This document shows, in pieces, positions 3,930 to 63,829 of a stretch of 64,000 bases of DNA. Both the position numbers and the translations under genes were made by a program. The stretch spans positions 1-64,000 of the IMG/VR virus record IMGVR_UViG_3300020463_003399; one strand, given 5' to 3'. How positions within the stretch are numbered: the first letter of the stretch is position 1; each line of letters opens with the position of its first letter. Under the pieces are notes generated by a model that did not search any database, was not told the origin of the DNA, and saw only the letters and a list, made by a program, of their open reading frames with translations. The DNA is from a virus.

Positions 3930-6269
3930 ATGGCTGAAGGCGATGTAACAATAACAGGTTTGAGTCCGAATGTACCACAATGGTCTACGGAACAAACATT
4001 ACTTAAAGTAACGCAGATTTTACAGAAAGAAAATCTACTTACTTCACAGGTTATTAAAAGTATTAATGCCCTGGCGTCAGGTAATGCCGAAACAGTAAAA
4101 GAAGTACGTCAAAATGTACAACAAGCCAGAGAAACCGCTAAAGCAACAAAAGAATTAGAAAAAACCACTGCACAATCAGTACAAGAAGAAAAGAAGTCTT
4201 TTAATATCTTTAGTAATATCTACAAAGGCATAGAAAGACTAGTAAGAGTCGAAGAATTACAAAACACATTACAAGAAAAAAGAACAAAAGCACTTGAAGA
4301 AAAAATATTTCAGGCAACAATGAAATCGGCACCTGATGGCGATGTACAAGCGGCTAGATTAGATGCAAAAATGAAGGCGGCAACACAGGCAACGAAAAAC
4401 TCTGAAACAAATATTCTTAGTGGTGACATTAATCCTAACTTTTTTCAAAAAACTATTAAAGGTATTGCAGGCATGACAGTTGCGGCAGAAGGATTTAATG
4501 CATACTTAGGTCAAAACTTTGAAGATAGATTTAATCTTGCAAACGAAATAAGACAATCTGGTTTATTTGCAGGTTTAGATTCTGCTTCTGCAGGATTAAT
4601 TGGGTTTTCAGAAACAGTTAATGATAGTAACTTTACATTAGGTCAAGCGGCAGAATTTACTGAAAGATTTTCACAAGCAGTTGGTAGAACAGGCGTTGAG
4701 GCGGCAATGAGATTTGTAAACGCCATGGCATATGATAGGCAACTTGAAAATGGAGAAAAAGCATTAGGCTTGATGGAAAGATTTGGTATGGACTTTAGAC
4801 AAGTTAGTATTGTGTCAGGTGAATATCTAGAATCTTTAAGATCCGCAAACGTATTAGGAAAATTGTCACAAGCACAAATGGAAGCAGGCATGGAAGACTT
4901 TATGGATGGGGTTACTGCAACATCTAACGTCTTAAAAATTAGTTTAGAAGATTCTGCAAAGATGATTGCAGATAGATTGAACAGAGATGATATTGCTGGG
5001 TTCATGGCTCTTATGAGTGATGATAAAAAACAACAAACAACGGCGGCATTAGCAGGTGTTGGTCTTGAAGATGGAAGTGTATTAGGTGAGGCAATTATTA
5101 AAAGGATTGCAATGGGTAGTGAAGGATTTTTAGTTTCAGATGACAGAGCCCAACTAATGGAAACAGCCCAAGGTGCAGAAATAGTTAGACTTATTGAACA
5201 AGTAGGTTTAATTGCAGACCAAGGCGGAGACGTAAGTGCGGCGATGAAAACATTTATGTCTGGCGCAGGACAAATGGTTGATGCTAATCAAGGTGATGCT
5301 ACTGCTAAATTACTGATGGCTACTGGACAAGGCAATATAGGAAAAATGTTTACTGAAATTGAAAAATTTTCAGGAACTATTGGTGACATTGACAAAGGAA
5401 TTACACCGTTAGCTGAGGCAGACGTTGCCCAAGTTGCTAAAGACGATATTGCAAGAACGGCCACAGTTGCTATCGAAGGATTGGTAAACACACAAATGCC
5501 AGTCTTTGCAGAAAACTTAAAAGGTATCAATACACAAACTGCTGGTATAATTAACAACTTAGAACAAGTAGGACTTAATCTAGCACCAGCGGCCTCGGTA
5601 GCCGCTAGAACGGCAGGAATAATAACTGAGGCAGGCAGAGGCATTGGAGATGCAATGCTAGACGCCTTAGAATTTATAACATCACCATTAGATAATGCCG
5701 TTACAGGTACTGTAAAAGTAATTGGAGCAGATGATACTAAAACAGGACAAATTATTACTGATACTCAACAAACAGATGAAGAAAAAGATAAAAACATAGC
5801 AACAAAACGACAGACCAAAGATATCACAAAGGGCGAAGAAAGTTTACGTGAAGGTGGTATTGTTAATATGTTGATAGATGGTCAAGCAAAAAATATGTTT
5901 GACGAATTATTTGAAGTTTTATTAAAAGATAAAAATGCTGATATATCAGGAAACGTATCTGAACTATCAGATTTAATGGGATTTGATAGTTTCTTTAAAG
6001 ATGATGCAGAATCTATAAAAGAAAGTCAAGCAGAATTAATGAGAGCAATCGAAGCCATTAAAGAAAAAGACGAATTCAGGGCTGAAGGTGGACAAGAAAA
6101 ACTACAGAAATTATTAGATGCACTAGAAGCCATGCAATCAGAAACATATGAAAAGAGTATGTTCAGAGGTGACGAAGCAACAAAGGCAAGAAACGATGAA
6201 AACGCCACAGAAAAAGACGCTTTAGTTGGAGCAATTAGAGATTTAATAGACTCAATCAAGAGGCAATAA
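3930..6269 (+). CDS. Putative tape measure / large tail structural protein
   Basis: This 779-residue protein is mostly alpha-helical, with a coiled-coil-rich N-terminus (residues about 45-130: long Gln/Glu/Lys/Ala heptads). A small-residue-rich central domain of alternating Ala/Gly helices follows, then a second charged helical C-terminus. Length, helix content and position between gp26 and the portal gene suggest a tail length determinant analogous to T4 gp29 (590 residues), but I see no diagnostic motif. An alternative is another large internal virion protein. The start ATG follows GAGAGAAATTTA. A late promoter lies upstream. Confidence 0.45.
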   Translation: MAEGDVTITGLSPNVPQWSTEQTLLKVTQILQKENLLTSQVIKSINALASGNAETVKEVRQNVQQARETAKATKELEKTTAQSVQEEKKSFNIFSNIYKGIERLVRVEELQNTLQEKRTKALEEKIFQATMKSAPDGDVQAARLDAKMKAATQATKNSETNILSGDINPNFFQKTIKGIAGMTVAAEGFNAYLGQNFEDRFNLANEIRQSGLFAGLDSASAGLIGFSETVNDSNFTLGQAAEFTERFSQAVGRTGVEAAMRFVNAMAYDRQLENGEKALGLMERFGMDFRQVSIVSGEYLESLRSANVLGKLSQAQMEAGMEDFMDGVTATSNVLKISLEDSAKMIADRLNRDDIAGFMALMSDDKKQQTTAALAGVGLEDGSVLGEAIIKRIAMGSEGFLVSDDRAQLMETAQGAEIVRLIEQVGLIADQGGDVSAAMKTFMSGAGQMVDANQGDATAKLLMATGQGNIGKMFTEIEKFSGTIGDIDKGITPLAEADVAQVAKDDIARTATVAIEGLVNTQMPVFAENLKGINTQTAGIINNLEQVGLNLAPAASVAARTAGIITEAGRGIGDAMLDALEFITSPLDNAVTGTVKVIGADDTKTGQIITDTQQTDEEKDKNIATKRQTKDITKGEESLREGGIVNMLIDGQAKNMFDELFEVLLKDKNADISGNVSELSDLMGFDSFFKDDAESIKESQAELMRAIEAIKEKDEFRAEGGQEKLQKLLDALEAMQSETYEKSMFRGDEATKARNDENATEKDALVGAIRDLIDSIKRQ

Positions 6270-9445: not shown

Positions 9446-10075
9446 ATGACCGTTCTTATAGAAAGGCTATCACACAATCAAGCGAAAGTTAAGTCAAGAA
9501 TCGTTGAGGGTGATGACGGTGGTAAAAACATGTTTATGGAAGGCATTTTCGTTCAAGGTAACGTTAAAAATGCTAACCAACGTGTGTATCCGGTTAACGA
9601 AATTGCGAAAGCAGTTGAGTCTGTACAAAAGAAAATCGAAGACGGTTTTCCAGTACTAGGCGAATGTGACCACCCACCAGAATTGACCGTTAACGTTGAC
9701 AGAGTTTCGCATATAATTGAATCTATGTGGATGGATGGACCGAACGGGTATGGGAAACTTAAAATTGTTCCGACACCAATGGGTAACATTATCAGAACAT
9801 TAATCGAGTCGGGCGCCACTTTAGGCGTTTCATCTCGTGGTTCAGGTGAAGTTGGCACATCTGGTGAAGTGAAAAATTTTGAGATTGTCACTGTAGACAT
9901 TGTAGCACAACCAAGTGCTCCAGAGGCCTACCCGAAGGCAATCTACGAAGGTTTAATGAACATGCGTGGTGGTTACCAAACTTGGCAACTAGCACAAGAT
10001 GTACAAAAAGACAAGGTCGCTCAAAAGTACTTGTCAGAACAATTAGTTAAGTTCATCAATGAACTTAAACTTTAA
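9446..10075 (+). CDS. 21: Prohead core protease gp21
   Basis: This 209-residue serine protease matures the T4-type prohead by cutting scaffold, core and capsid proteins. The family signature is present: NQRVYP near residue 45, the catalytic His in LGECDHP (H76), the catalytic Ser in GVSSRGSG (S129 or S130) and the downstream VDIVAQPSAP segment (D151). The length is close to T4 gp21 (212). TTTTGGAGATAACCA precedes the start. It is followed 14 bases later by the scaffold gene. Confidence 0.95.
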   Translation: MTVLIERLSHNQAKVKSRIVEGDDGGKNMFMEGIFVQGNVKNANQRVYPVNEIAKAVESVQKKIEDGFPVLGECDHPPELTVNVDRVSHIIESMWMDGPNGYGKLKIVPTPMGNIIRTLIESGATLGVSSRGSGEVGTSGEVKNFEIVTVDIVAQPSAPEAYPKAIYEGLMNMRGGYQTWQLAQDVQKDKVAQKYLSEQLVKFINELKL

Positions 10076-10089
10076 CAGGAGAAGCAACA

Positions 10090-11208
10090 ATGGCAAACGA
10101 AATCCTTGCTAATCTTCTAGAGACTGGTGTATTATCCGAAGAGGCTAGTACACAAATTAAAGAGGCTCTGGACAAAAAACTTATTGAAGCAAGAGAGGAG
10201 ATTACAGCCGAGTTGCGTGAGGAGTTCGCACAAAAATTTGAACACGACAAATCAGTAATTGTTGAAGCTATGGACAACATGCTAAACAATTCAATTAAAA
10301 CTGAAATGGAAGAGTTTAAATCGGACCGTGAACAACTTATCGCAGAACGAGTTGCATATAAGAAATCTATTTCTGAACATGCAAAACTCCTTGAAAAATT
10401 CATTACTTCTCGTTTGGCGACCGAAGTTAAGGAACTTAGAAATGATAGAGCAAAAGTTAACGAAAATCTTGAACAAACTAAGAAATTCGTTGTTAAGCAA
10501 CTATCACGTGAACTATCTGAGTTTCATAATGATAAACGTGAATTAGTAGATACTAAGGTACGTTTAGTAGCAGAAGGCAAAGAACTACTTAACAAGACTA
10601 AGCAGAACTTTGTTAAACGTTCAGCAGAATTAGTAGAGAGTACAATTAAAAACGCTCTACGTTCAGAAATGAAAACGCTAAAAGAAGATATCCAATCAGC
10701 TAAAGAAAACGAATTTGGCCGTAAGGTATTTGAAGCGTTCTCAGGCGAATTTATGACTTCACAATTAAATGAAGGCACAGAAGTAGCTAAAATGAACAAG
10801 AAGTTGAATGAATCAGCTACTAAGGTTAACGAACTTGAAAAAGTGATTGCTCAAAAAGATTCAAGCATTGAAACTGCTGAAAAGGCAAAACGTGTACTAG
10901 AAGACAAGATTAATCGTAAAGAGGTTATGTCAAGTCTAATGGCACCGTTAGGCAAAGAAAAAGCTAAAGTAATGAATGAACTACTTGAGTCAGTAAAAAC
11001 TTCAAATCTAAAAACTGCATTCAAAAAATACCTACCAGCAGTATTAGACGAGAAAAACGTTTCAACGAAAGAAGAAACACAAACATTAACAGAAGGCAAA
11101 ATGACCGAACAAACTGGTGACCGTGAGGTAGTTACGGAAGAATCACAGTCGTCAGGAAGTGATGCCGAAATCATCCAGCTTAAGAAATTAGCTGGGTTGA
11201 AAAATTAA
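10090..11208 (+). CDS. 22: Prohead scaffold protein gp22
   Basis: This 372-residue protein is almost wholly charged coiled coil (residues about 25-270), as expected for the major scaffold around which the prohead assembles and which gp21 then digests. N-terminal helices are followed by a long Lys/Glu heptad region and a C-terminal KKYLPAVL helix, then QLKKLAGL at the end. It sits between protease and capsid genes, as in T4 (269 residues there). AACAGGAGAAGCAACA gives the ribosome site. Confidence 0.9.
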   Translation: MANEILANLLETGVLSEEASTQIKEALDKKLIEAREEITAELREEFAQKFEHDKSVIVEAMDNMLNNSIKTEMEEFKSDREQLIAERVAYKKSISEHAKLLEKFITSRLATEVKELRNDRAKVNENLEQTKKFVVKQLSRELSEFHNDKRELVDTKVRLVAEGKELLNKTKQNFVKRSAELVESTIKNALRSEMKTLKEDIQSAKENEFGRKVFEAFSGEFMTSQLNEGTEVAKMNKKLNESATKVNELEKVIAQKDSSIETAEKAKRVLEDKINRKEVMSSLMAPLGKEKAKVMNELLESVKTSNLKTAFKKYLPAVLDEKNVSTKEETQTLTEGKMTEQTGDREVVTEESQSSGSDAEIIQLKKLAGLKN

Positions 11209-53847: not shown

Positions 53848-54304
53848 GACTATTACTTACAGTTGGCAAAATGTAGACAAAGCAATACAAACTATTGCTA
53901 TGCAAATGTATGAAAGTCAATGGAGACCTGATTACATAGTAGGTATTACACGTGGAGGATTAGTTCCAGCAGTAATGTTGTCTCATATGACTAATATACC
54001 AATGCATACTCTTTGTGTTCAGTTAGGTGCAGAAGGTCTTGAAGAAAATATTGAAAGCAATATTAAAATGGCAGGCGATGCCATTAATGGTAAAAACATT
54101 TTAATCATTGACGATATCAATAGAGGCGGTGATGCATTAGAATGGATTATAAATGATTGGGCTTTATCTGAGGAATCCTTACATGGAAATGTTAAATTTG
54201 CTTCACTAATTATAGATCCAAATTCTAAAGTTGATACAGATTTTTTCTATGAAGAATTAGATAATGAAAATGAAATGTGGGTCAACTTTCCTTGGGAACA
54301 ATGA
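53840..54304 (+). CDS. Phosphoribosyltransferase
   Basis: This 154-residue type-I PRTase-like protein has the PRPP loop ILIIDDINRGGDAL (residues 87-100) and an upstream YIVGITRGGLVPAVML segment that binds the phosphate. The acceptor nucleobase cannot be assigned. A PRPP synthase is encoded about 9 kb downstream, so the phage may make and use its own PRPP. The 3' end overlaps the next gene (ATGA). Confidence 0.85.
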   Translation: MNKTITYSWQNVDKAIQTIAMQMYESQWRPDYIVGITRGGLVPAVMLSHMTNIPMHTLCVQLGAEGLEENIESNIKMAGDAINGKNILIIDDINRGGDALEWIINDWALSEESLHGNVKFASLIIDPNSKVDTDFFYEELDNENEMWVNFPWEQ

Positions 54305-55089
54305 AACATATTATACCTGAACAACTTGAACAAGAAACACATCTATTAGAATATTTTGCAGGTACATATGGTGATTATGTATGTGGTATTATATCATATT
54401 CTATAGATGGTTACTATGATGATTATGTTGATTTAGAAGATGAAAGAAGATACTGGAAAGTAGAACATTCTCTAGTAAAGAGAAATAGATATTCATTAGG
54501 TCTCAGAGGCAACGGTTATGAGCATGTAGAAAACTATACAGATTTTATGTTGGCTCATAAAATATGGTTAGAATTTCAACCTCACTTTGATACAGTATCT
54601 CCAACAAAAGTATTATTCAATACACACCCAAGATTATACAATTCAAATTATAATGATCCTTTAATATATAGAACGATTACAAATAAATTTAAGAATACAA
54701 AAACAAAAATTATATCAATACCTTTAGAATTTGATGCTATATTTAAAGTTGCATGTAATGAATATTATACTAGTAGAATGCATAAGCTAGATGCTCCATC
54801 AGATTTAAAAGCATTTTATGGTATATTTAAATCACACGTAGATAAACAAAAAGGCATACTAAATCATATTCCAGAAGAACAACGTTTTGCTATAAATGAT
54901 ATAGATAAGCTATCACCAAAAGATATTGTATCATATGGCGATGTAGATAGAGAAAAGTTTGAACACTATCAGAAATTATACAACGATAAAAAGATGGATG
55001 TTTTAAACTGGCATACAAAAAGACTGTATGAAAAAACTAAAAAAAGTAGACCTGGATATATTCTTGATTTAGAAAATTATCTAAAGTGA
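54301..55089 (+). CDS. Hypothetical protein
   Basis: Starting at the ATG at 54301, which overlaps the PRTase stop, gives 262 residues; an earlier in-frame start at 54277 lies inside the PRTase gene. It is rich in Tyr, Asp and Lys with no recognised motif. It converges on the minus-strand gene ending at 55081 with a 9-base overlap. Unknown function. Confidence 0.65.
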   Translation: MKHIIPEQLEQETHLLEYFAGTYGDYVCGIISYSIDGYYDDYVDLEDERRYWKVEHSLVKRNRYSLGLRGNGYEHVENYTDFMLAHKIWLEFQPHFDTVSPTKVLFNTHPRLYNSNYNDPLIYRTITNKFKNTKTKIISIPLEFDAIFKVACNEYYTSRMHKLDAPSDLKAFYGIFKSHVDKQKGILNHIPEEQRFAINDIDKLSPKDIVSYGDVDREKFEHYQKLYNDKKMDVLNWHTKRLYEKTKKSRPGYILDLENYLK

Positions 55090-56100
55090 TTCAATAAACT
55101 CTTTTAATATCTTTCTATCAACATAAGGTCTTATGTTGTGAGTTTGACTTTCTGATATCTTATAATCTATTTCTTTTATAGATAGATTTTCACATTCAAA
55201 CTGTTTTATATAATGTAGAAAACTTACATAGTCAGTATCATATTTTCCATACAAATAGTCTACTTTGATATTTGGATAATCAGATAAAAATCTAAAAGGA
55301 TCTATAATTTCATTATTAAGATTTAGCTTTTTAAATTTCCAACATCTTACTATATGCAATATTGCAGGATATATCATTGCTAACTGTTGGTCTTTTAAAT
55401 GCTCTGGTCTATTATGCCATTTCATATATTGTTTAACCCAAGGAGAATGATTCCAAGAAAATGTAGCTTGACCTCCTGTGAGAAATACATTTGTAACTAT
55501 ATCTTTTAAGTGATATGCAAGACTTAATGAACAAGCTACATGTTTTGAATCAGCATAGATGACTACGTTTTTATATTCTTTTTTAATATACTCTCGTATT
55601 TGATTACAAGTTTTTTCTTGTGTATTGTTTTGTTCACTTACGCCTAACATCATTACACTAGGATATAATGATTCTGGATATCTAAATGGGTCTTCATTTA
55701 CAATCAGTAAATCAGTATCTAAATTTATTATCTTATCACTTACATTTGTCAGTGGACTAGTTAATCTTCCTTCATGTCCTGCGTAACTAGTGAGTAATAT
55801 AATTAGCTTATCATGTTCTTTGTTTGTCTTTTTCCAGCACATAGTAAAGTCTTTACTTACATTTTCAAAACGTTCTTCATCGTAAGTATGCACAATATCT
55901 TTATATGCGTCCCAACTTCCTGTATTGGCTCTACGCAGATAAGTGTCTGTTACATCTTTTTTGTATATTTTAGTATAGATATCTGTACTTGTTAAAGACT
56001 CAAGTTGTTTTATTTTGTCGTATATTAATGTTTCGTTCAAAAAGAAAAGGTCTACTTCACTATCGAGGTCAACGTCTATACCACGTATATGTATTTTCAT
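55081..56100 (-). CDS. Possible alpha/beta-hydrolase-like protein
   Basis: This 339-residue protein has a KLIILLTSYAG strand-loop near residue 100 and YADSKHVACSLSLAYHL around residue 184. It also has VFLTGGQATFS, YLYGKYDTDYV (a possible acid residue) and a late THNIRP His. The order of elements is like an alpha/beta hydrolase but the nucleophile motif D-S-K-H is not canonical, so the fold is a guess. It directly follows the radical SAM gene on the minus strand (no gap), so the two probably act together and are expressed late. Confidence 0.4.
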   Translation of the reverse strand: MKIHIRGIDVDLDSEVDLFFLNETLIYDKIKQLESLTSTDIYTKIYKKDVTDTYLRRANTGSWDAYKDIVHTYDEERFENVSKDFTMCWKKTNKEHDKLIILLTSYAGHEGRLTSPLTNVSDKIINLDTDLLIVNEDPFRYPESLYPSVMMLGVSEQNNTQEKTCNQIREYIKKEYKNVVIYADSKHVACSLSLAYHLKDIVTNVFLTGGQATFSWNHSPWVKQYMKWHNRPEHLKDQQLAMIYPAILHIVRCWKFKKLNLNNEIIDPFRFLSDYPNIKVDYLYGKYDTDYVSFLHYIKQFECENLSIKEIDYKISESQTHNIRPYVDRKILKEFIESL

Positions 56101-57039
56101 TTAGTATATACCTTCGTTTTCTTTTGCATGTTCGTAGAATGGTGCAAGTTTGAAGTTTTCTGTTATTCTGCCTCTACGTTTACTTCCTGGATCTGGGATA
56201 CCACCTTCGTTATCTGTGTCCCAATTAGTTATTTTTACCCATCTTCCTCTATTCAACATTTTGTTACCTTCTCTTAATGGAAATAGAATACTGTTCTGTT
56301 CATTAAACTTATTGTAGTAAGGCACCCCATGAAAACTCCATATATAGTCCTCTGATATGTTAAACTGGTCTGCACATAGTTTTACTAGTCCATTCAATTT
56401 AATGTTACCATCTTTGTCTTTTTGATATCTACCAAGTTGACCAACGTTTTTAATTCTCATCATTATGTTTCTGATGTTTTCTTTTTCTACGAGTTCTTTT
56501 AATTTCGCAGGAGCCTCATAGTTTATTTCAGGAATAATAATTGTACCTGTATTTAAATTCATCTTTCTATCTACAATGTTACGAAGTGCTTTTAGTTTCT
56601 TTTTAGCACAACGCATTTCATCAATTTGTTCATACCAGTCATCATTATCAACACCATTCAAACTTAAAGTCACACTACGTAATCCTGCTTGAATTAGTGA
56701 ATCTAAATATTTTGCATGTGATAATCTTAGACCATTTGATACTAATGTACAACTGTGTTTTCTTCCATCGGTTCTGCCATGCTGATAAACTGCACGAATA
56801 AACTCTGCACAGTCCTTAGCCATAGTAGGCTCAGCACCGATAATACGAATAAATGCTCTACCACCTAATCTATCCATAAAGTCTTTGAATTTATCTAAAT
56901 CCATATCAGGTGGTTCTCTGTTTGGTATGTAACAATTCTTACAAGTCATGTTACATTTATGCGTTATATCAGCACAAATATCCACAAAGGTATTATTCTC
57001 TGGTTCTGTAATTTCATAATTAAAGAGTTTTATGCTCAT
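56101..57039 (-). CDS. Radical SAM protein
   Basis: This 312-residue protein has the radical SAM cluster C29-x3-C33-x2-C36 (CNMTCKNC), a GG-like FIRIIGAEPTM segment near residue 85 and the TLVSNGL and SVTLSLNGVD strands that bind SAM. It generates a 5'-deoxyadenosyl radical from SAM using a [4Fe-4S] cluster. The C-x3-C-x2-C spacing makes QueE unlikely. It is the first gene of a minus-strand late unit (late promoter at 57069). The substrate is unknown. Confidence 0.85.
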   Translation of the reverse strand: MSIKLFNYEITEPENNTFVDICADITHKCNMTCKNCYIPNREPPDMDLDKFKDFMDRLGGRAFIRIIGAEPTMAKDCAEFIRAVYQHGRTDGRKHSCTLVSNGLRLSHAKYLDSLIQAGLRSVTLSLNGVDNDDWYEQIDEMRCAKKKLKALRNIVDRKMNLNTGTIIIPEINYEAPAKLKELVEKENIRNIMMRIKNVGQLGRYQKDKDGNIKLNGLVKLCADQFNISEDYIWSFHGVPYYNKFNEQNSILFPLREGNKMLNRGRWVKITNWDTDNEGGIPDPGSKRRGRITENFKLAPFYEHAKENEGIY

Positions 57040-57050
57040 TCATTCGCCTT

Positions 57051-57059
57051 AATAAATAG
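57051..57059 (+). promoter_or_regulatory. Possible late promoter (plus strand)
   Basis: AATAAATAG 36 bases before the ATG at 57096, opposite the minus-strand late promoter at 57069-57077. Confidence 0.4.
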
Positions 57060-57068
57060 TGTATAGAC

Positions 57069-57077
57069 GTATTTATC
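57069..57077 (-). promoter_or_regulatory. T4-like late promoter (minus strand)
   Basis: GTATTTATC is GATAAATAC on the minus strand, 30 bases before the radical SAM gene. Confidence 0.7.
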
Positions 57078-57095
57078 GTCCTAGGAGAAGCTAAA

Positions 57096-57701
57096 ATGTT
57101 AGAGCATTTATACAAATTTAACTATGATATTGATAGAGAGCAACTTGTAAAAGAGAACGAATCAATGAGTGCAAGTGGCGATACTTCTTTACTTACAGTG
57201 AATACAGAACTAATAGAAAAAGTAAATGCAGGCAGAGAAACAGGAGAAGACATATTTCCGACATATCATGATTTGAAAGATAAAGAGCAATGGGATAATA
57301 TGGATACTCTAAAAATAAGAATGTTCGATGAATATAAATTTCAAAATGATTGTCCTGAGATGAAAAGATTAACAATAGATTTTGGTAATATAATAGGAAG
57401 CAAAGATATAACTCCTTTCTTTGTACATCAAGAAAAAGATTCAGACTTTCCATTTCATATAGATATGGGGTTTCAATGTGCTATAAATGTTATAGTAAAA
57501 GGTGGGGATACACCAATACTTTTTAGAGATAATGACGAAATACATGAGTATCATTACGAGAATGCTCTGCTAAATATATGTAATATTTTTCATAGTGTGC
57601 CTGTACAACAAGACACAAATCGCATGTTATTAAAATTTAGAATTAAAGATGTATCATATGAAGATGCATCAAAAAGAATGATGGAGCATTTTGGTGAGTA
57701 A
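57096..57701 (+). CDS. 2OG-Fe(II)-like protein, first of a tandem pair
   Basis: This 201-residue protein has an oxygenase-like site: H121-x-D123 (FPFHIDMG), H166 (NIFHSVP) and a following NRMLLKFRI with R176/R182. Strands between them (DTPILFRD, YHYENALLNICN) fit the double-stranded beta-helix. A second copy follows immediately. Asp/Asn hydroxylase-like or other 2OG reactions are possible; the substrate is unknown. AGGAGAAGCTAAA precedes the ATG. Confidence 0.65.
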   Translation: MLEHLYKFNYDIDREQLVKENESMSASGDTSLLTVNTELIEKVNAGRETGEDIFPTYHDLKDKEQWDNMDTLKIRMFDEYKFQNDCPEMKRLTIDFGNIIGSKDITPFFVHQEKDSDFPFHIDMGFQCAINVIVKGGDTPILFRDNDEIHEYHYENALLNICNIFHSVPVQQDTNRMLLKFRIKDVSYEDASKRMMEHFGE

Positions 57702-58260
57702 TTCGATACAAGATATAGACTTTACAATAAACAAAGAAATGCTAATCGAAGAAAGTAAAGTTTGTGATTACGTACCTATCAATCGTGTAACTCTGAGGCG
57801 TGTAAAGATGGGAAGTTATGCAGAAACAAAAGGTAAGAAGTTTTCTGATTTTCTAAATGAAGAAGACAAAGATTGGTGGTTAAAGCAAAATACATGGCAA
57901 TCTAGTATGAATGCAGATGCAGAAATGTTATTTAAAATGCCAGAAACTACAAGAATACTTGCACACTTTAAAGAGAAATTACAAACAGAAAATATTGAGG
58001 CAAACTTCTTTACTCAAAAACAAGGCACAAGTGTAAAGATGCACGTAGATGTTGGAACACCATGTGCTATTAATTTTATTATAAAAGGCGAAGAAACGCC
58101 TATCGTATTTGAAGATGAAGGTACTTTCTTTTATAAAAATGCTTTGCTTAATGTAAGTAAAAAACATATGGTACCAGAACAAGAAACAACTGATAGAATG
58201 CTTTTCAAGTTAAGAATATTAGACTTAACTTTTGACGAAGCAAAGGAAAGGCTATGCTAA
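57694..58260 (+). CDS. 2OG-Fe(II)-like protein, second of a tandem pair
   Basis: The likely start is GTG at 57694 (7 bases after GGAG), overlapping the previous stop; the 188-residue product repeats the layout of the preceding protein: KMHVDVGTPCAINFIIKGEETPIVF (H-x-D), YKNALLNVSKKHMVPE (distal His) and TDRMLFKLRI. The pair share the NALLN and RML.K.RI elements and probably arose by duplication. The 3' end overlaps the desaturase start by 7 bases. Confidence 0.65.
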   Translation: MSNSIQDIDFTINKEMLIEESKVCDYVPINRVTLRRVKMGSYAETKGKKFSDFLNEEDKDWWLKQNTWQSSMNADAEMLFKMPETTRILAHFKEKLQTENIEANFFTQKQGTSVKMHVDVGTPCAINFIIKGEETPIVFEDEGTFFYKNALLNVSKKHMVPEQETTDRMLFKLRILDLTFDEAKERLC

Positions 58261-58931
58261 ACAAAAGTCAGATATTCATATTACTACATCACATATCTTT
58301 AGCTATTGGACTTGCTATGTATGGCTTTCAGTGGCAATGGGCTATTGTAGTATTTCTATTCAGTATGTTTTGGGCATGGATAGTAGGCAATAATATAAAT
58401 CACTATTACTTTGCACATGCAACATACAAAGATAGCTTAAAAAGTTATTTCTATACTTTTCTTTGTTTAACATCTGGACTAGGTTCACCTTTATCTTTTA
58501 GTGCATCACATAGACAACATCACAAATATACAGATACAGAAAAAGATCCACACTCACCTCATCATATAGGCTGGAAACGTGTTTACTTTTTAGATTGGGC
58601 ACCACAGAATATCAGTCGTGGAATAATTAGAGATTTTGTTAGAAGTAAGTTTCAAATATGGGTTCACAAACACTGGTATCAATTACACATTGGTATCGTA
58701 ATTATCATTGCTCTTATAGATTTAAGACTATTGTTTTTTGGTCTTTCTCCAGGAGTTCTTTATAGTTTTCATAGTGGAAGTCTAACAAACACACTTTCTC
58801 ATATAGGTGGAGAACATAGAAACGTTTGGTATCTAAGACCTTTTATTTGGTGGGGTTGGGCACATGGTGACCATCATAGTGGTAAGTTTGACAGATATAA
58901 AAGCAGTAGAGTCTATTCAGATAACTATTGA
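58254..58931 (+). CDS. Membrane fatty acid desaturase
   Basis: This 225-residue protein has the three histidine boxes of the acyl-CoA/acyl-lipid delta-9 desaturase family: H50-x4-H55 (NHYYFAH), HRQHH at 86-90 and HGDHH at 204-208, with SLTNTLSHIGG between. Hydrophobic segments at about 5-25, 28-45, 62-80 and 145-165 place the di-iron site at the membrane. It would introduce a double bond into fatty acids, perhaps to tune host membrane fluidity. It overlaps the oxygenase-like gene upstream. Confidence 0.9.
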   Translation: MLNKSQIFILLHHISLAIGLAMYGFQWQWAIVVFLFSMFWAWIVGNNINHYYFAHATYKDSLKSYFYTFLCLTSGLGSPLSFSASHRQHHKYTDTEKDPHSPHHIGWKRVYFLDWAPQNISRGIIRDFVRSKFQIWVHKHWYQLHIGIVIIIALIDLRLLFFGLSPGVLYSFHSGSLTNTLSHIGGEHRNVWYLRPFIWWGWAHGDHHSGKFDRYKSSRVYSDNY

Positions 58932-59304: not shown

Positions 59305-59892
59305 ATGAAAGTACAAACAGATATTGATATTGATGTTGTCGATAGAGATAGTGTGCTAACACATTTTCGACACATAAATGCAAGTATTAAAAAAGGAAAA
59401 GAATATACAAAACATAACAGTGGTGTATATCTTCAACCTATTCCTTTTGATCCTATTTCTGAATTAGCAACTATAGAATACAAAGAGGCAGAAGAAAGAG
59501 GATATTTTAAATTAGATTTTCTCAATAATACTTTGTATGAAGGTATCAAAGATGAAAAGCATTTAGATGAATTAATTGCAAGAGAACCTATCTGGGATTT
59601 ATTGCAACACGAAGATGTGATTAAAAATCTAGTGCATGTACACAATCACTTAAATGTCTTACAAGTAATGAAACCTAAAAGTGTTGAAGAATTAGCAGAA
59701 GTTCTAGCAGTGATTAGACCTGCTAAAAGACATTTACTTAATGAAAGTAAAGAAAAGATTAGTAGTGAAGTGTGGGTAAAACCCGATGATGGATCTTACT
59801 ATTTCAAAAAAGCACATGCTATTGCATATGCATTAAGTATTGTAGTTCAGCTTAATCTATTTTGCGAACAAGTTGAACAGAACGCCTCTTAA
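59305..59892 (+). CDS. Mini protein with C-family DNA polymerase (PolIII alpha) motifs
   Basis: This 195-residue protein contains, in the right order, short blocks of DnaE/PolC-type polymerases: DIDID at 6-10 (DnaE P-D-x-D-x-D-F, catalytic D401/D403), GYFKLDFL at 66-73 (DnaE KFDFLGL, catalytic D555 equals D71), KPKSVEELAEVLAVIRP at 123-139 (DnaE KPxSxxDLAxxxALxRP) and FKKAHAIAYA at 167-176 (DnaE FNKSHAxAYA). It is far smaller than a polymerase (over 1000 residues), so it is a remnant or a small factor derived from one. It has no Shine-Dalgarno sequence. Confidence 0.65.
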   Translation: MKVQTDIDIDVVDRDSVLTHFRHINASIKKGKEYTKHNSGVYLQPIPFDPISELATIEYKEAEERGYFKLDFLNNTLYEGIKDEKHLDELIAREPIWDLLQHEDVIKNLVHVHNHLNVLQVMKPKSVEELAEVLAVIRPAKRHLLNESKEKISSEVWVKPDDGSYYFKKAHAIAYALSIVVQLNLFCEQVEQNAS

Positions 59893-60256
59893 TACGTTTC
59901 TTAATAATATTAGATAGACTTGTTTCAGGACCCCATAGTACTTGGGTGTCTTTTGAATTCATATTAAGTATCCAATTTCTATATAAACTTATCTGACTGC
60001 CTAAGAATAAATTGATAGGCATAAGTCTATTTGATTCCCACCACCATTGTTCACCTAACTCAATGAACTTTTTTCTTAACTTAGGTGATGGTATTTCTTC
60101 AAAGTTATACATTGAAGTTATCACTTGGTCAGAATTTATTATTATACCTAGATACTCTTTATACTCTTTCTTATTACCGTACCTGACATACGAAAAGAAA
60201 GGATAATTTTCTTGCATCCATTTGACTTTATCTTGCTCCATCGTTATATTTAGCAT
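59852..60256 (-). CDS. Hypothetical protein on the opposite strand
   Basis: A 134-residue protein (start 60256, or 60241 at the second Met) rich in Trp, Tyr, Lys and Asn, with MQENYPFFSYVRYGNKKEYKEYLGIIINSDQVITSMYNFEEI and a QWWWESNRLMPINLFLGSQI segment of the style found in marine T4-like phages. It overlaps the 3' end of the polymerase-like gene by 41 bases on the other strand. No ribosome site is obvious for either start. The sequence is coding-like; function unknown. Confidence 0.65.
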   Translation of the reverse strand: MLNITMEQDKVKWMQENYPFFSYVRYGNKKEYKEYLGIIINSDQVITSMYNFEEIPSPKLRKKFIELGEQWWWESNRLMPINLFLGSQISLYRNWILNMNSKDTQVLWGPETSLSNIIKKRIKRRSVQLVRKID

Positions 60257-60292: not shown

Positions 60293-61093
60293 ATGATAAA
60301 CGTCAATATGTATCAGTATGAAAGAGATATTGAAATTGCTTGTTTAGATGGTGACAATACAAGCACTATGACAAACTACCTGGGGAATATGCCAATGTAC
60401 GATGTAACACACAAACTTCATAAGGGTATTGATAATACTCTTAGATTTAAATTAAAAGATACAGATAGAAAACCTATCGATTTAACTAACAAAACTATTA
60501 TATGGAAAATGTATGATAGGGAATCAAGAGAAAATGTACTATTCAAATACCTTACTGTCACCAACGGAACCAAAGGTATGGCATCTTTAGTAGTTCCAAC
60601 AACTGATACAATCATGCTTTCTCAGGGCTTTTATCAATTTGCAATGTATACAGTAGAAAATGGTGTAGAACAAATCATCTATACAGACACAAATGACAAC
60701 GCAAAGGGATCGATTGAATTAATTGACGATGTTTATCCAGAATTCGAACCATCACAAGAGTCAACTTCATTCTTTGATGATGGTAATTACTTTATATCTA
60801 CTGCTTTTGATGGCTCAGGCAAGACATCAAAATCAAAATCAATACATACTTTAGCATTATACTTTGATGGTTTTACAGGTACAGTAGAAATACAAGGTGA
60901 TTTAAGTGAACAACCAAGTAGTACTCATGACGATTGGTTCTTGATATCACCAAAACTATTTTCAAATCCATCGATTACTATCAATAACGAAACAGGCGTA
61001 CAAGCATTTGTACTTGAAGCAAACGTAAATTGGATAAGAGTTCGATATACTGCGACAGCCGGAACAATTAAAAAAGTACTTTTAAGAAACTAA
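60293..61093 (+). CDS. Virion-like beta-domain protein
   Basis: This 266-residue protein resembles modular phage structural proteins: a beta domain with KTIIWKMYDRESRENVLFKYLTVTNGTKG, which matches BppU-like N-terminal domains of tail/baseplate proteins, and GFYQFAMYTVENG. It then has a Thr/Ser-rich linker and a C-terminal beta-sandwich (ALYFDGFTGTVEIQGDL...YTATAGTIKKVLLRN). A late promoter lies directly before it. It is probably a virion component such as a baseplate or neck decoration; the role is inferred. Confidence 0.6.
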   Translation: MINVNMYQYERDIEIACLDGDNTSTMTNYLGNMPMYDVTHKLHKGIDNTLRFKLKDTDRKPIDLTNKTIIWKMYDRESRENVLFKYLTVTNGTKGMASLVVPTTDTIMLSQGFYQFAMYTVENGVEQIIYTDTNDNAKGSIELIDDVYPEFEPSQESTSFFDDGNYFISTAFDGSGKTSKSKSIHTLALYFDGFTGTVEIQGDLSEQPSSTHDDWFLISPKLFSNPSITINNETGVQAFVLEANVNWIRVRYTATAGTIKKVLLRN

Positions 61094-61133: not shown

Positions 61134-62135
61134 ATGGACCTTCAGCAAAAAATATATCAGCATATACCTGGTAAGAATAGACAATCAAGTGGTGGTTGGC
61201 TTAGTTTCAACTGCCCTTGTTGTGTCGAGGAAGGCGAATCTCGACTAGATAATAGAATGCGTGGGGGTGTTCGAAGTGACGGTGACTCCATATCATACCA
61301 CTGTTTTAACTGTGGATTCACTGCAAGTCATCGAAATGGCAGAATACTTAACAAGAAGTTTATAAAACTCATGCGTAATCTTAACATTTCTGAAAGTGAT
61401 ATAAAACGTTTACAGTTGGAAGCTATCCGTCAGAAAGAGTTATCTGAAGGTCCATACCTTTTTGCAAACAAAGTAAAGCAAATAAGAATACCAAAGTTTC
61501 AAGAAACTGAGTTGCCAGAAAACTCAGAAAAATTAGAAGTTCTTTTAGCACAAGACAATCCTTCAGAAGGTGCCATCTTTGCAGTTAAGTATTTGATTGA
61601 TAGAGGTGTCTATGACCACATAGATAATGTCTATTGGTCTTCACATATGAATTTCAAAAACAGAGTTATATTTCCGTTTATTCAAGGAGATGATATAGTT
61701 GGTTACACTGCACGTGATATAACTGGCAAGTCTTCTTCAAAATATATTACAAAATCTCCTAAAGCATTTTTGCACAACACAGACAAAATAAAAAGCAAGA
61801 CTAAATATCTTATAGTATGTGAAGGCATTATAGATGCGTTAGCATTAGATTGTGTGGCTATCACAAGTAACGAAGCCTCACAAGACCAAATTGATTATAT
61901 CAATCAGTTTAGAGGCGAAGTGATTGTTTGTCCTGATAGGGATAAAGCAGGAGAGAAACTAATCAAACAAGCCCAGGAAAATGGCTGGAGTGTATCTTTT
62001 CCTATGTGGGAAGATGATATCAAAGATGCCGCTGATGCAATACAACGATATGGAAAGTTGTATACTTTAAAGAGTATCATAGATGCACGTATTAGCAACA
62101 ACACTAAAATAAGTGTGAAAATGAGAATAGGATAA
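61134..62135 (+). CDS. 61: DNA primase gp61-like
   Basis: This 333-residue primase has an N-terminal zinc finger (C27-C30 region NCPCC and C57/C60 in YHCFNCG), then a TOPRIM core with E230 in VCEGIIDALAL and D268/D270 in VCPDRDKAG. It makes RNA primers for lagging-strand synthesis with the gp41 helicase, which is not in the window. Length matches T4 gp61 (342). No Shine-Dalgarno sequence precedes the ATG, and the gene is followed 3 bases later by the ClpP-like gene. Confidence 0.9.
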   Translation: MDLQQKIYQHIPGKNRQSSGGWLSFNCPCCVEEGESRLDNRMRGGVRSDGDSISYHCFNCGFTASHRNGRILNKKFIKLMRNLNISESDIKRLQLEAIRQKELSEGPYLFANKVKQIRIPKFQETELPENSEKLEVLLAQDNPSEGAIFAVKYLIDRGVYDHIDNVYWSSHMNFKNRVIFPFIQGDDIVGYTARDITGKSSSKYITKSPKAFLHNTDKIKSKTKYLIVCEGIIDALALDCVAITSNEASQDQIDYINQFRGEVIVCPDRDKAGEKLIKQAQENGWSVSFPMWEDDIKDAADAIQRYGKLYTLKSIIDARISNNTKISVKMRIG

Positions 62136-62138
62136 AAA

Positions 62139-62777
62139 ATGAAAAAGAAAATGACGATTATTCCAGAGCCAAAAGAACAACCAAAACCAACTCCACCACC
62201 TCCAATGCCTCAACCGCCTGCTCCTCCAAAACTACCGGGAGAATACAGTAAAGACAATGGTGTTCTGTTTATGGACAAAGAGTTTAATCAAGAAAACTGC
62301 ATGCCTTTGGTAAAAATGATTATTGAATATAATCTTATGCCAAAAGATAAAGCACCAAATACAATTCATCTGTATATTAATTCTCCAGGAGGGTTAGTAG
62401 ATAGTTGTATGCATTTAATCGATACAATCAAGCAATCAAGAATTCCAGTTCATACATATGGTATGGGATCAATCGCTAGTTGTGGCGTCATGCTTATGAT
62501 GTCTGGTGTAAAAGGTCATAGATATCTTACACACAATACTGCGGTCATGTCACACGAATTCAGTGGTGGGCAAAAAGGTCAGTATCATGATATGCTAGAT
62601 AGTAAAAAGCATATGGATTGGACTAACGAAAAGCTATTAGAACATTATATCAAATGTACAGGTAAAACAAAAACTTACATTCGTAAGCATTTACTAGCAC
62701 CAAAGACGGATCATTGGTTAACACCAGAAGAAGCGGTCAAACATGGTATCGCTGATAAAGTAATTAAGACTTATTAG
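62139..62777 (+). CDS. ClpP-like serine protease
   Basis: This 212-residue protein has the ClpP triad: S114 in GSIASCGVML, H139 in VMSHEFSG and D191 in KTDHWLTPEEAVKHGIAD, with the LYINSPGG strand before the nucleophile. An N-terminal proline-rich stretch (residues about 10-33) is unusual for the family and could be an interaction region. Phage ClpP-like proteases may process virion proteins or host proteins; no chaperone partner gene is visible. It follows the primase by 3 bases. Confidence 0.9.
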   Translation: MKKKMTIIPEPKEQPKPTPPPPMPQPPAPPKLPGEYSKDNGVLFMDKEFNQENCMPLVKMIIEYNLMPKDKAPNTIHLYINSPGGLVDSCMHLIDTIKQSRIPVHTYGMGSIASCGVMLMMSGVKGHRYLTHNTAVMSHEFSGGQKGQYHDMLDSKKHMDWTNEKLLEHYIKCTGKTKTYIRKHLLAPKTDHWLTPEEAVKHGIADKVIKTY

Positions 62778-62797
62778 ACCTTTTTTCAAATTTATCA

Positions 62798-62826
62798 TTG
62801 ACAATCGACAATAAATTTGCTATTCT
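62798..62826 (+). promoter_or_regulatory. sigma70-type promoter
   Basis: TTGACA (62798-62803), 17 bases, TATTCT (62821-62826), before the PRPP synthase gene. Confidence 0.8.
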
Positions 62827-62860
62827 AGTAGTATTAAACTAGTTCAGAGGTGTAAAGTGT

Positions 62861-63829
62861 ATGAAAATTATATCTGGTAACAGTAATAGAGAATTGGCTC
62901 AATCTATTGCTGAACATTGTTTCAGTGATTTAGTGCCGGCTAACATTACTACATTCGCAGATGGCGAGTGTAACATAGAATTTCAAGAAAACATTAGAGG
63001 TGAAGATGTTTTTATAATTCAAAGTACAAGTAGTCCAGTAAATGATAATCTAATGGAACTTATGATTATGATTGATGCGGCAAAACGTAGTTCAGCAAAA
63101 AGAATTACGGCAGTTATTCCTTACTTTGGATATGCAAGACAAGACAGAAAGAGTGCATCACGTACTCCTATCTCTGCAAAACTTGTCGCTAACTTAATTA
63201 CTAAAGCAGGTGCTGATAGAATTTTAACTATGGACTTACATGCTGGTCAAATTCAGGGCTTCTTTGATATTCCCGTAGATGATTTAACGAGCAGGTTGGT
63301 CTTTGTCAAAGATATCAAAAAGACTATTGGTGTCATTGACGATCCAGCAGTAAATCAAGTAGAAACAGTATTCGTTTCACCAGATGCTGGTGGTACAGTA
63401 AGAGCAAGAAAATTTGCTGATATGTTTCATGCCAATTATGCTATCGTTGACAAACGTAGACCTGAGGCAGGAAAAAGCGAAGTAATGAATCTTATAGGTG
63501 ATGTTAAAGGAAAACATGCAATTCTTGTAGATGATATAATTGATAGTGGTGGAACTTTATGTAATGCCGCCAAAGCAATTATGGATCAAGGTGCAATGAG
63601 TGTTAGAGCATATATTACACATGGTGTTTTAACAAATGGTGCTTGTAAGAAAATTGAAAAGAGTGTGTTGGATGAATGCATTATCACAGACAGTATAAAA
63701 TTTAATTGTCCTGATGGTTGCAAAAAGACACGTGTAGTTAGTGTATGTAGTTTATTTGGCGAAGCTATACGTAGAGTAAGTAATGAGGAAAGTGTAAGTA
63801 GTTTGTTTACACATAAAGTTCCTAATTAA
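62861..63829 (+). CDS. prs: Ribose-phosphate pyrophosphokinase (PRPP synthase)
   Basis: This 322-residue enzyme makes PRPP from ribose-5-phosphate and ATP. Present are the ADGECNIEF and EDVFIIQS strands, YARQDRKS with the catalytic loop, SPDAGG and KRRPEAG, and the PRPP-binding loop [14 protein letters not shown] near residue 225. The full length matches bacterial Prs (315). It may supply PRPP for nucleotide or NAD synthesis in the infected cell together with the PRTase at 53840. AGAGGTGTAAAGTGT is the ribosome region. Confidence 0.95.

Follow-up and report, generated by a model that had tools for sequence, protein, structure and literature searches.

The locus and its product

The window analysed here, a stretch of 64,000 nucleotides from an uncultured virus (IMG/VR virus record IMGVR_UViG_3300020463_003399), carries near its end an ORF that begins with ATG and encodes a protein of 195 residues (Table 1). 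The initial annotation, made from the letters and ORF translations, had picked out four motifs reminiscent of bacterial DnaE, and all four are indeed found in this ORF in the order described: DIDID (residues 6-10), KLDFL (69-73), KPKSVEELAEVLAVIRP (123-139) and FKKAHAIAYA (167-176). A permissive pattern of the ordered DnaE motifs matches the protein, while none of 200,000 shuffled versions did, and in a set of 8,267 ORFs from the loci examined the same pattern picked out 95, each of them either a true DnaE or a homologue of the window protein. Residues 2-189 match phrog_11778, which carries the PHROG label "DNA polymerase". A Pfam search of the 195-residue protein gave no significant match and plain phmmer against the PDB returned nothing, so that the likeness to DnaE is visible only to profile and HMM-HMM methods. 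Public labels of the homologues conflict with each other, e.g. 'putative membrane protein', 'hypothetical protein' and 'DNA polymerase' (among them CBB gp287, L083:5851-6501, and the GAP32 homologue).

Table 1. Coordinates of the gene, its motifs and its conserved neighbours in the window, with E. coli equivalents referring to DnaE.
Feature	Position	Strand	Evidence or remarks
Putative C-terminal half of a split minimal PolIII alpha (PHROG 11778), 195 aa	59305..59892	+	ORF; phrog_11778, E=3e-71; HMM-HMM match to DnaE; invariant catalytic residues
Catalytic strand DIDID, residues 6-10	59320..59334	+	D6 = D401, D8 = D403, D10 = D405 (hhalign); invariant in 79 distinct proteins
KHNSGVYL, residues 36-43	59410..59433	+	Equivalent of KHAGGVVI, 510-517 (hhalign); H37 and G40 invariant
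KLDFL, residues 69-73	59509..59523	+	K69 = K553, D71 = D555, third catalytic Asp (hhalign); K69 and D71 invariant in 79 proteins
Fingers segment KPKSVEELAEVLAVIRPAK, residues 123-141	59671..59727	+	R138-P139 = R639-P640 (hhalign)
FKKAHAIAYA, residues 167-176	59803..59832	+	Equivalent of FNKSHSAAYA, 756-765 (hhalign); F167, K168 and H171 invariant
134-aa gene, convergent with the C-half and overlapping its 3' end, phrog_11637, unknown function	59852..60256	-	E=1e-28; closest conserved neighbour
Conserved 266-aa neighbour, phrog_14467, virion structural protein	60293..61093	+	A gene of ~270 aa in 76/76 loci
DNA primase, phrog_47, conserved neighbour	61134..62135	+	E=7e-43; 70/72 loci

Relationship to PolIII alpha

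HMM-HMM alignment (hhalign) of the profile of this family, henceforth the C-half, with eight DnaE proteins gave three separate blocks that are collinear with DnaE: residues 4-34 align with the E. coli protein from residue 399 (E 1e-3), 34-140 with 508-641 (E 1e-5) and 150-179 with 738-768 (E 3e-4). This collinearity establishes the equivalences D6 = D401, D8 = D403, K69 = K553, D71 = D555, R138 = R639, F167 = F756 and H171 = H760; in this register the DxD of 'TDIDID' is D6 plus D8, and D10 aligns with D405. The three catalytic aspartates are thus all represented, as had been claimed, and among 79 distinct C-halves D6, D8, D10, H37, G40, K69, D71, R138, P139, K141, F167, K168 and H171 are invariant, so that both the DxD and the KLDFL residues are conserved in the homologues. 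Searching the PDB with the C-half profile returned PolIII alpha as the only matches, weak but collinear (E 0.08). The AlphaFold model of the C-half (mean pLDDT 88.8) resembles the DnaE fold rather than an unrelated one, its best 15 PDB matches in Foldseek being all PolIII alpha, with a modest best E of 1.8e-3. The blocks shared between the split halves and DnaE are short and very divergent; judged by HMM-HMM collinearity, fold search and invariant catalytic residues, descent of the window protein from the palm and fingers core of PolIII alpha, as initially proposed, is near certain.

Much of the parent enzyme has been lost. By hhalign, the C-half has no counterpart of about E. coli 434-508, which we take from the domain limits of the E. 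coli structure to be the thumb, and the thumb that precedes KHAGGVVI in DnaE is missing before KHNSGVYL. Nor does it have a counterpart of about 641-738, a stretch of the fingers that includes LRRAMGKK (708-715), whose arginines contact the dNTP triphosphate. Nothing in the ORF matches E. coli before 399 or after about 768, and the protein is without a clamp-binding motif, PHP, OB and tau-binding region. K141, on the other hand, is an invariant lysine absent from E. coli DnaE. The GRGS of the Gly-Ser palm segment is also absent from the ORF, which begins one residue before the DxD strand. The window protein thus represents half a catalytic centre, and the earlier reading of it as a stripped, minimal form was right only in part: it has indeed lost PHP, thumb and clamp-binding regions as well as part of the fingers, but the protein does not stand alone, being the C-terminal half of a two-gene split.

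The partner gene

Phage CBB encodes, along with gp287, the homologue of the window gene, a second small DnaE-like protein, gp328 (172 aa), which the describers of that phage called a truncated PolIII alpha. Its sequence has WGLGRGSSVSS inside and EFLKW at the end, and it aligns to E. coli DnaE up to residue 393, just before PDFDVDF. CBB gp328 belongs to PHROG 11127 and matches PF07733 at 20-95. For this family, the N-half, hhalign found correspondence to about E. coli 292-393 (probability 97.5%, E 9e-12), and its profile matched E. coli DnaE in the PDB at 209-393 (E 3e-5), again stopping just before D401. G-x-GRGS is common to ten N-halves from named phages, and G-x-G-R-G-S is invariant across 93 distinct N-halves. 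The best 14 PDB matches of an AlphaFold model of an N-half (pLDDT 87.7) were all PolIII alpha or PolC (modest best Foldseek E, 3.7e-2). Given that the N-half ends before the DxD and the C-half begins there, the palm is cut between the Gly-Ser segment and the DxD strand, with each piece in its own gene. The 102-aa gene just upstream of the C-half was also considered as a source of the missing segment, and was rejected, as it matched no family and adjoins the C-half in only 33 of 85 loci. In Vibrio phage 2.275.O (L092:3745-4516) the N-half is annotated as two non-matching ORFs; one 171-aa frame (4001-4513) covers it.

The two halves travel together in large T4-like phages. GenBank phage records with the N-half number 88 and those with the C-half 90, with nearly equal counts per host genus. 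In the IMG/VR contigs of at least 200 kb that were tested, the N-half was present in four of four found via the C-half and the C-half in seven of seven found via the N-half, i.e. both occur in 11 of 11; none of the shorter contigs tested in the same searches held both, as expected for unlinked genes. Phage RAS14 has both halves as well. In relatives the N-half gene lies 15-220 kb from the C-half gene, the positions of the two genes being 243 and 209 kb in CBB, 188 and 144 kb in PA5oct, 97 and 321 kb in Phosso, 241 and 58 kb in Atu_ph07, 275 and 158 kb in SCTP-2, and 137 and 122 kb in XacN1. A fused ORF of both halves was sought in 204 loci and none was found; the BFVD match A0A249Y020 (374 aa) was considered as a possible fused form. 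The 11 long contigs gave no match to another PolIII alpha, and ten of them carry a B-family polymerase, in agreement with the initial statement that these phages possess one.

On the whole 89,560-base record from which the window derives, neither a GRGS motif scan nor the N-half profile detected an N-half, and no B-family polymerase was found on this partial record. Only 30 kb of the record follow the gene, and in a 342-kb relative whose C-half is 83% identical the distance from the C-half downstream to the N-half is 84 kb; the record is thus a fragment that ends short of the partner's expected place. The pair is therefore demonstrated in relatives and not in the source genome itself.

Distribution and gene neighbourhood

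With the C-half, tblastn retrieved 90 phage records, every one below 60% identity, from jumbo phages of Pseudomonas, Escherichia, Klebsiella, Erwinia, Salmonella, Xanthomonas, Agrobacterium, Vibrio, Salicola and Sinorhizobium; matching stretches of viral contigs number at least 597. Purifying selection acts on the window gene, with dN/dS values of 0.08 and 0.13 in comparisons with its two nearest relatives. A search of 84,980 bacterial and archaeal genomes gave only eight matches, all in metagenome-assembled genomes and probably phage contigs, so that a cellular source family was not found.

The surroundings of both halves are rich in replication genes. In addition to the primase (Table 1), a DnaB-like helicase sits with the C-half in named phages, after the primase, and the N-half lies a few genes before a gp44-type clamp loader. 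A small convergent gene, overlapping or abutting, adjoins the C-half in 83 of the 84 loci with room for it, across very distant jumbo phages, and the phrog_11637 gene may possibly be a functional partner of the C-half. Other genes of the window look like cargo. Upstream of the C-half (54277-58931) there are a radical SAM protein (56101-57039, minus strand), two similar-looking proteins of ~190-200 aa in tandem (57096-58260) and a fatty-acid-desaturase-like protein (58254-58931) with a Pfam score under the cut-off; on the other side (62139-63829, plus strand) a ribose-phosphate pyrophosphokinase (phrog_619) adjoins a gene resembling ClpP or a head maturation protease, which suggests cargo of nucleotide or NAD metabolism.

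A proposed two-gene polymerase and its alternatives

The reading that we favour, with a probability of roughly 0.65, is that the two unlinked genes encode halves that would form a minimal C-family polymerase of low processivity, working beside the B-family replicase. The N-half (~170 aa, GxGRGSS) would supply the Gly-Ser segment of the pol-beta-like palm and hold the triphosphate, while the C-half would hold the metals and the template, contributing one strand that bears the pair of metal-binding aspartates, another that bears the third aspartate, and shortened fingers. Both proteins would fold together into one nucleotidyltransferase centre, presumably as a heterodimer, and the assembled pair would be a short-range DNA polymerase or nucleotidyltransferase of low processivity that assists the B-family enzyme. 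Lacking the thumb and the clamp-binding motif, such an enzyme should be distributive, which would suit RNA-primer extension before hand-over, gap filling or repair, its likeliest uses. In B. subtilis, DnaE extends primers and then hands over to PolC. With LRRAMGKK lost, an active pair would need other contacts to the triphosphate, and one may speculate that K141 and K168, invariant lysines at positions where E. coli DnaE has none, stand in for the lost arginines. The full proposal, a working C-family polymerase of under 380 aa in total, without thumb, PHP or clamp binding, with a primer-extending or repair role and possibly with K141 and K168 replacing the arginines, is put forward more tentatively, at somewhat less than an even chance.

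The initial annotation had held that, because a B-family polymerase is already present, the job of the protein must be a different one, such as that of a decoy or an inhibitor. This is not supported, since the partner N-half carries the missing GRGS and every catalytic residue is conserved in both halves, a pattern that points to catalysis having been kept and away from a decoy. It is true that phages often shut off host replication and that the fragment derives from a host-type polymerase, and halves that bind and disrupt subunits of the host PolIII holoenzyme could be imagined. Such a holoenzyme decoy would nevertheless need the clamp- and tau-binding regions, which are absent, and would not need invariant catalytic residues; the conserved placement among replication genes and the occurrence of this protein in phages whose hosts differ widely also speak against it, and we consider it improbable.

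Better placed, although still unlikely, is the idea that the assembled halves bind a nucleotide or a DNA end and are not a polymerase, serving as a regulatory or structural subunit of the replisome or as a nucleotidyltransferase with another substrate. The loss of the thumb, of a large part of the fingers and of all processivity elements would fit such a case, as would the phages' own B-family replicase and the primase and clamp-loader genes nearby. However, the catalytic aspartates and the equivalents of K553, R639 and H760 do not vary among 79 distinct C-halves, nor does GRGS among 93 distinct N-halves, and the template-side motifs of the fingers have been kept, suggesting a DNA-templated reaction. 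Strong size reduction and the split into two genes might even be taken as signs of a functionless, degenerate remnant of a phage DnaE, but the low dN/dS (0.08-0.13), the invariant active-site residues, conservation from Pseudomonas phages to those of Agrobacterium, Vibrio and halophiles, and the strict co-occurrence of the halves already contradict this, leaving it a negligible chance.

If the two-gene polymerase is real and active, it would be, to our knowledge, the smallest C-family polymerase, made up of two separately encoded chains in phages with a B-family replicase of their own. It would provide a direct test of the requirements of a C-family active site, the thumb included, as well as of the published idea that minimal forms resemble ancestral PolIII. 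With the pair so widely distributed, in at least 88-90 GenBank phage records and in hundreds of viral contigs, the answer would cover a large phage group.

Comparison with known systems

A split minimal PolIII in group 2.2 jumbo phages has already been described by computation (Iyer et al. 2021, PMC7824862), with a C-terminal unit that binds Mg2+ and template and with halves likely to reconstitute the complete enzyme; the window protein, which clearly falls in the C-half family, therefore belongs to a kind already described. We infer that the proteins in that work are PHROG 11127 and PHROG 11778, judging from the description and the phage group and not from accession numbers. The agreement extends, in relatives of the present phage, to the same two proteins, unlinked genes, a B-family polymerase in the same genome and no other PolIII domains, and there is no essential difference, other than that the present member comes from an uncultured phage contig. 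What is added here is a residue-level map of the parts kept and lost, and the co-occurrence counts. A literature search, including papers after 2021, found no experimental work on either half.

Single-chain DnaE of phages (PHROG 405 and others) is likewise a phage-encoded C-family palm with fingers but, unlike the split pair, consists of one chain with a thumb, and it is absent from the 11 long contigs with the split genes. On one 12,758-base contig (L060) a single-chain DnaE-like ORF (9839-10573, plus strand) lies 4 kb from a C-half; it has the GRGS-like TRGSAGSS, PDVDMDF, KVDIL and an insert of thumb length, and apparently no PHP domain. Rhodococcus phage Weasels2 (L210:1402-5155) has two adjacent genes annotated as PolIII alpha, of 305 and 947 aa, possibly the PHP and polymerase parts on separate chains. 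Compared with bacterial DnaE (E. coli PolIII alpha) and PolC, the split pair has neither PHP nor thumb, is without about 100 residues of the fingers (LRRAMGKK among them) and without the clamp-binding and OB/tau-binding regions, and is cut just before the DxD strand, yet it retains GRGS, PDxDxDF, KxDFL, RP and FNKSH in the same order, distributed over two proteins.
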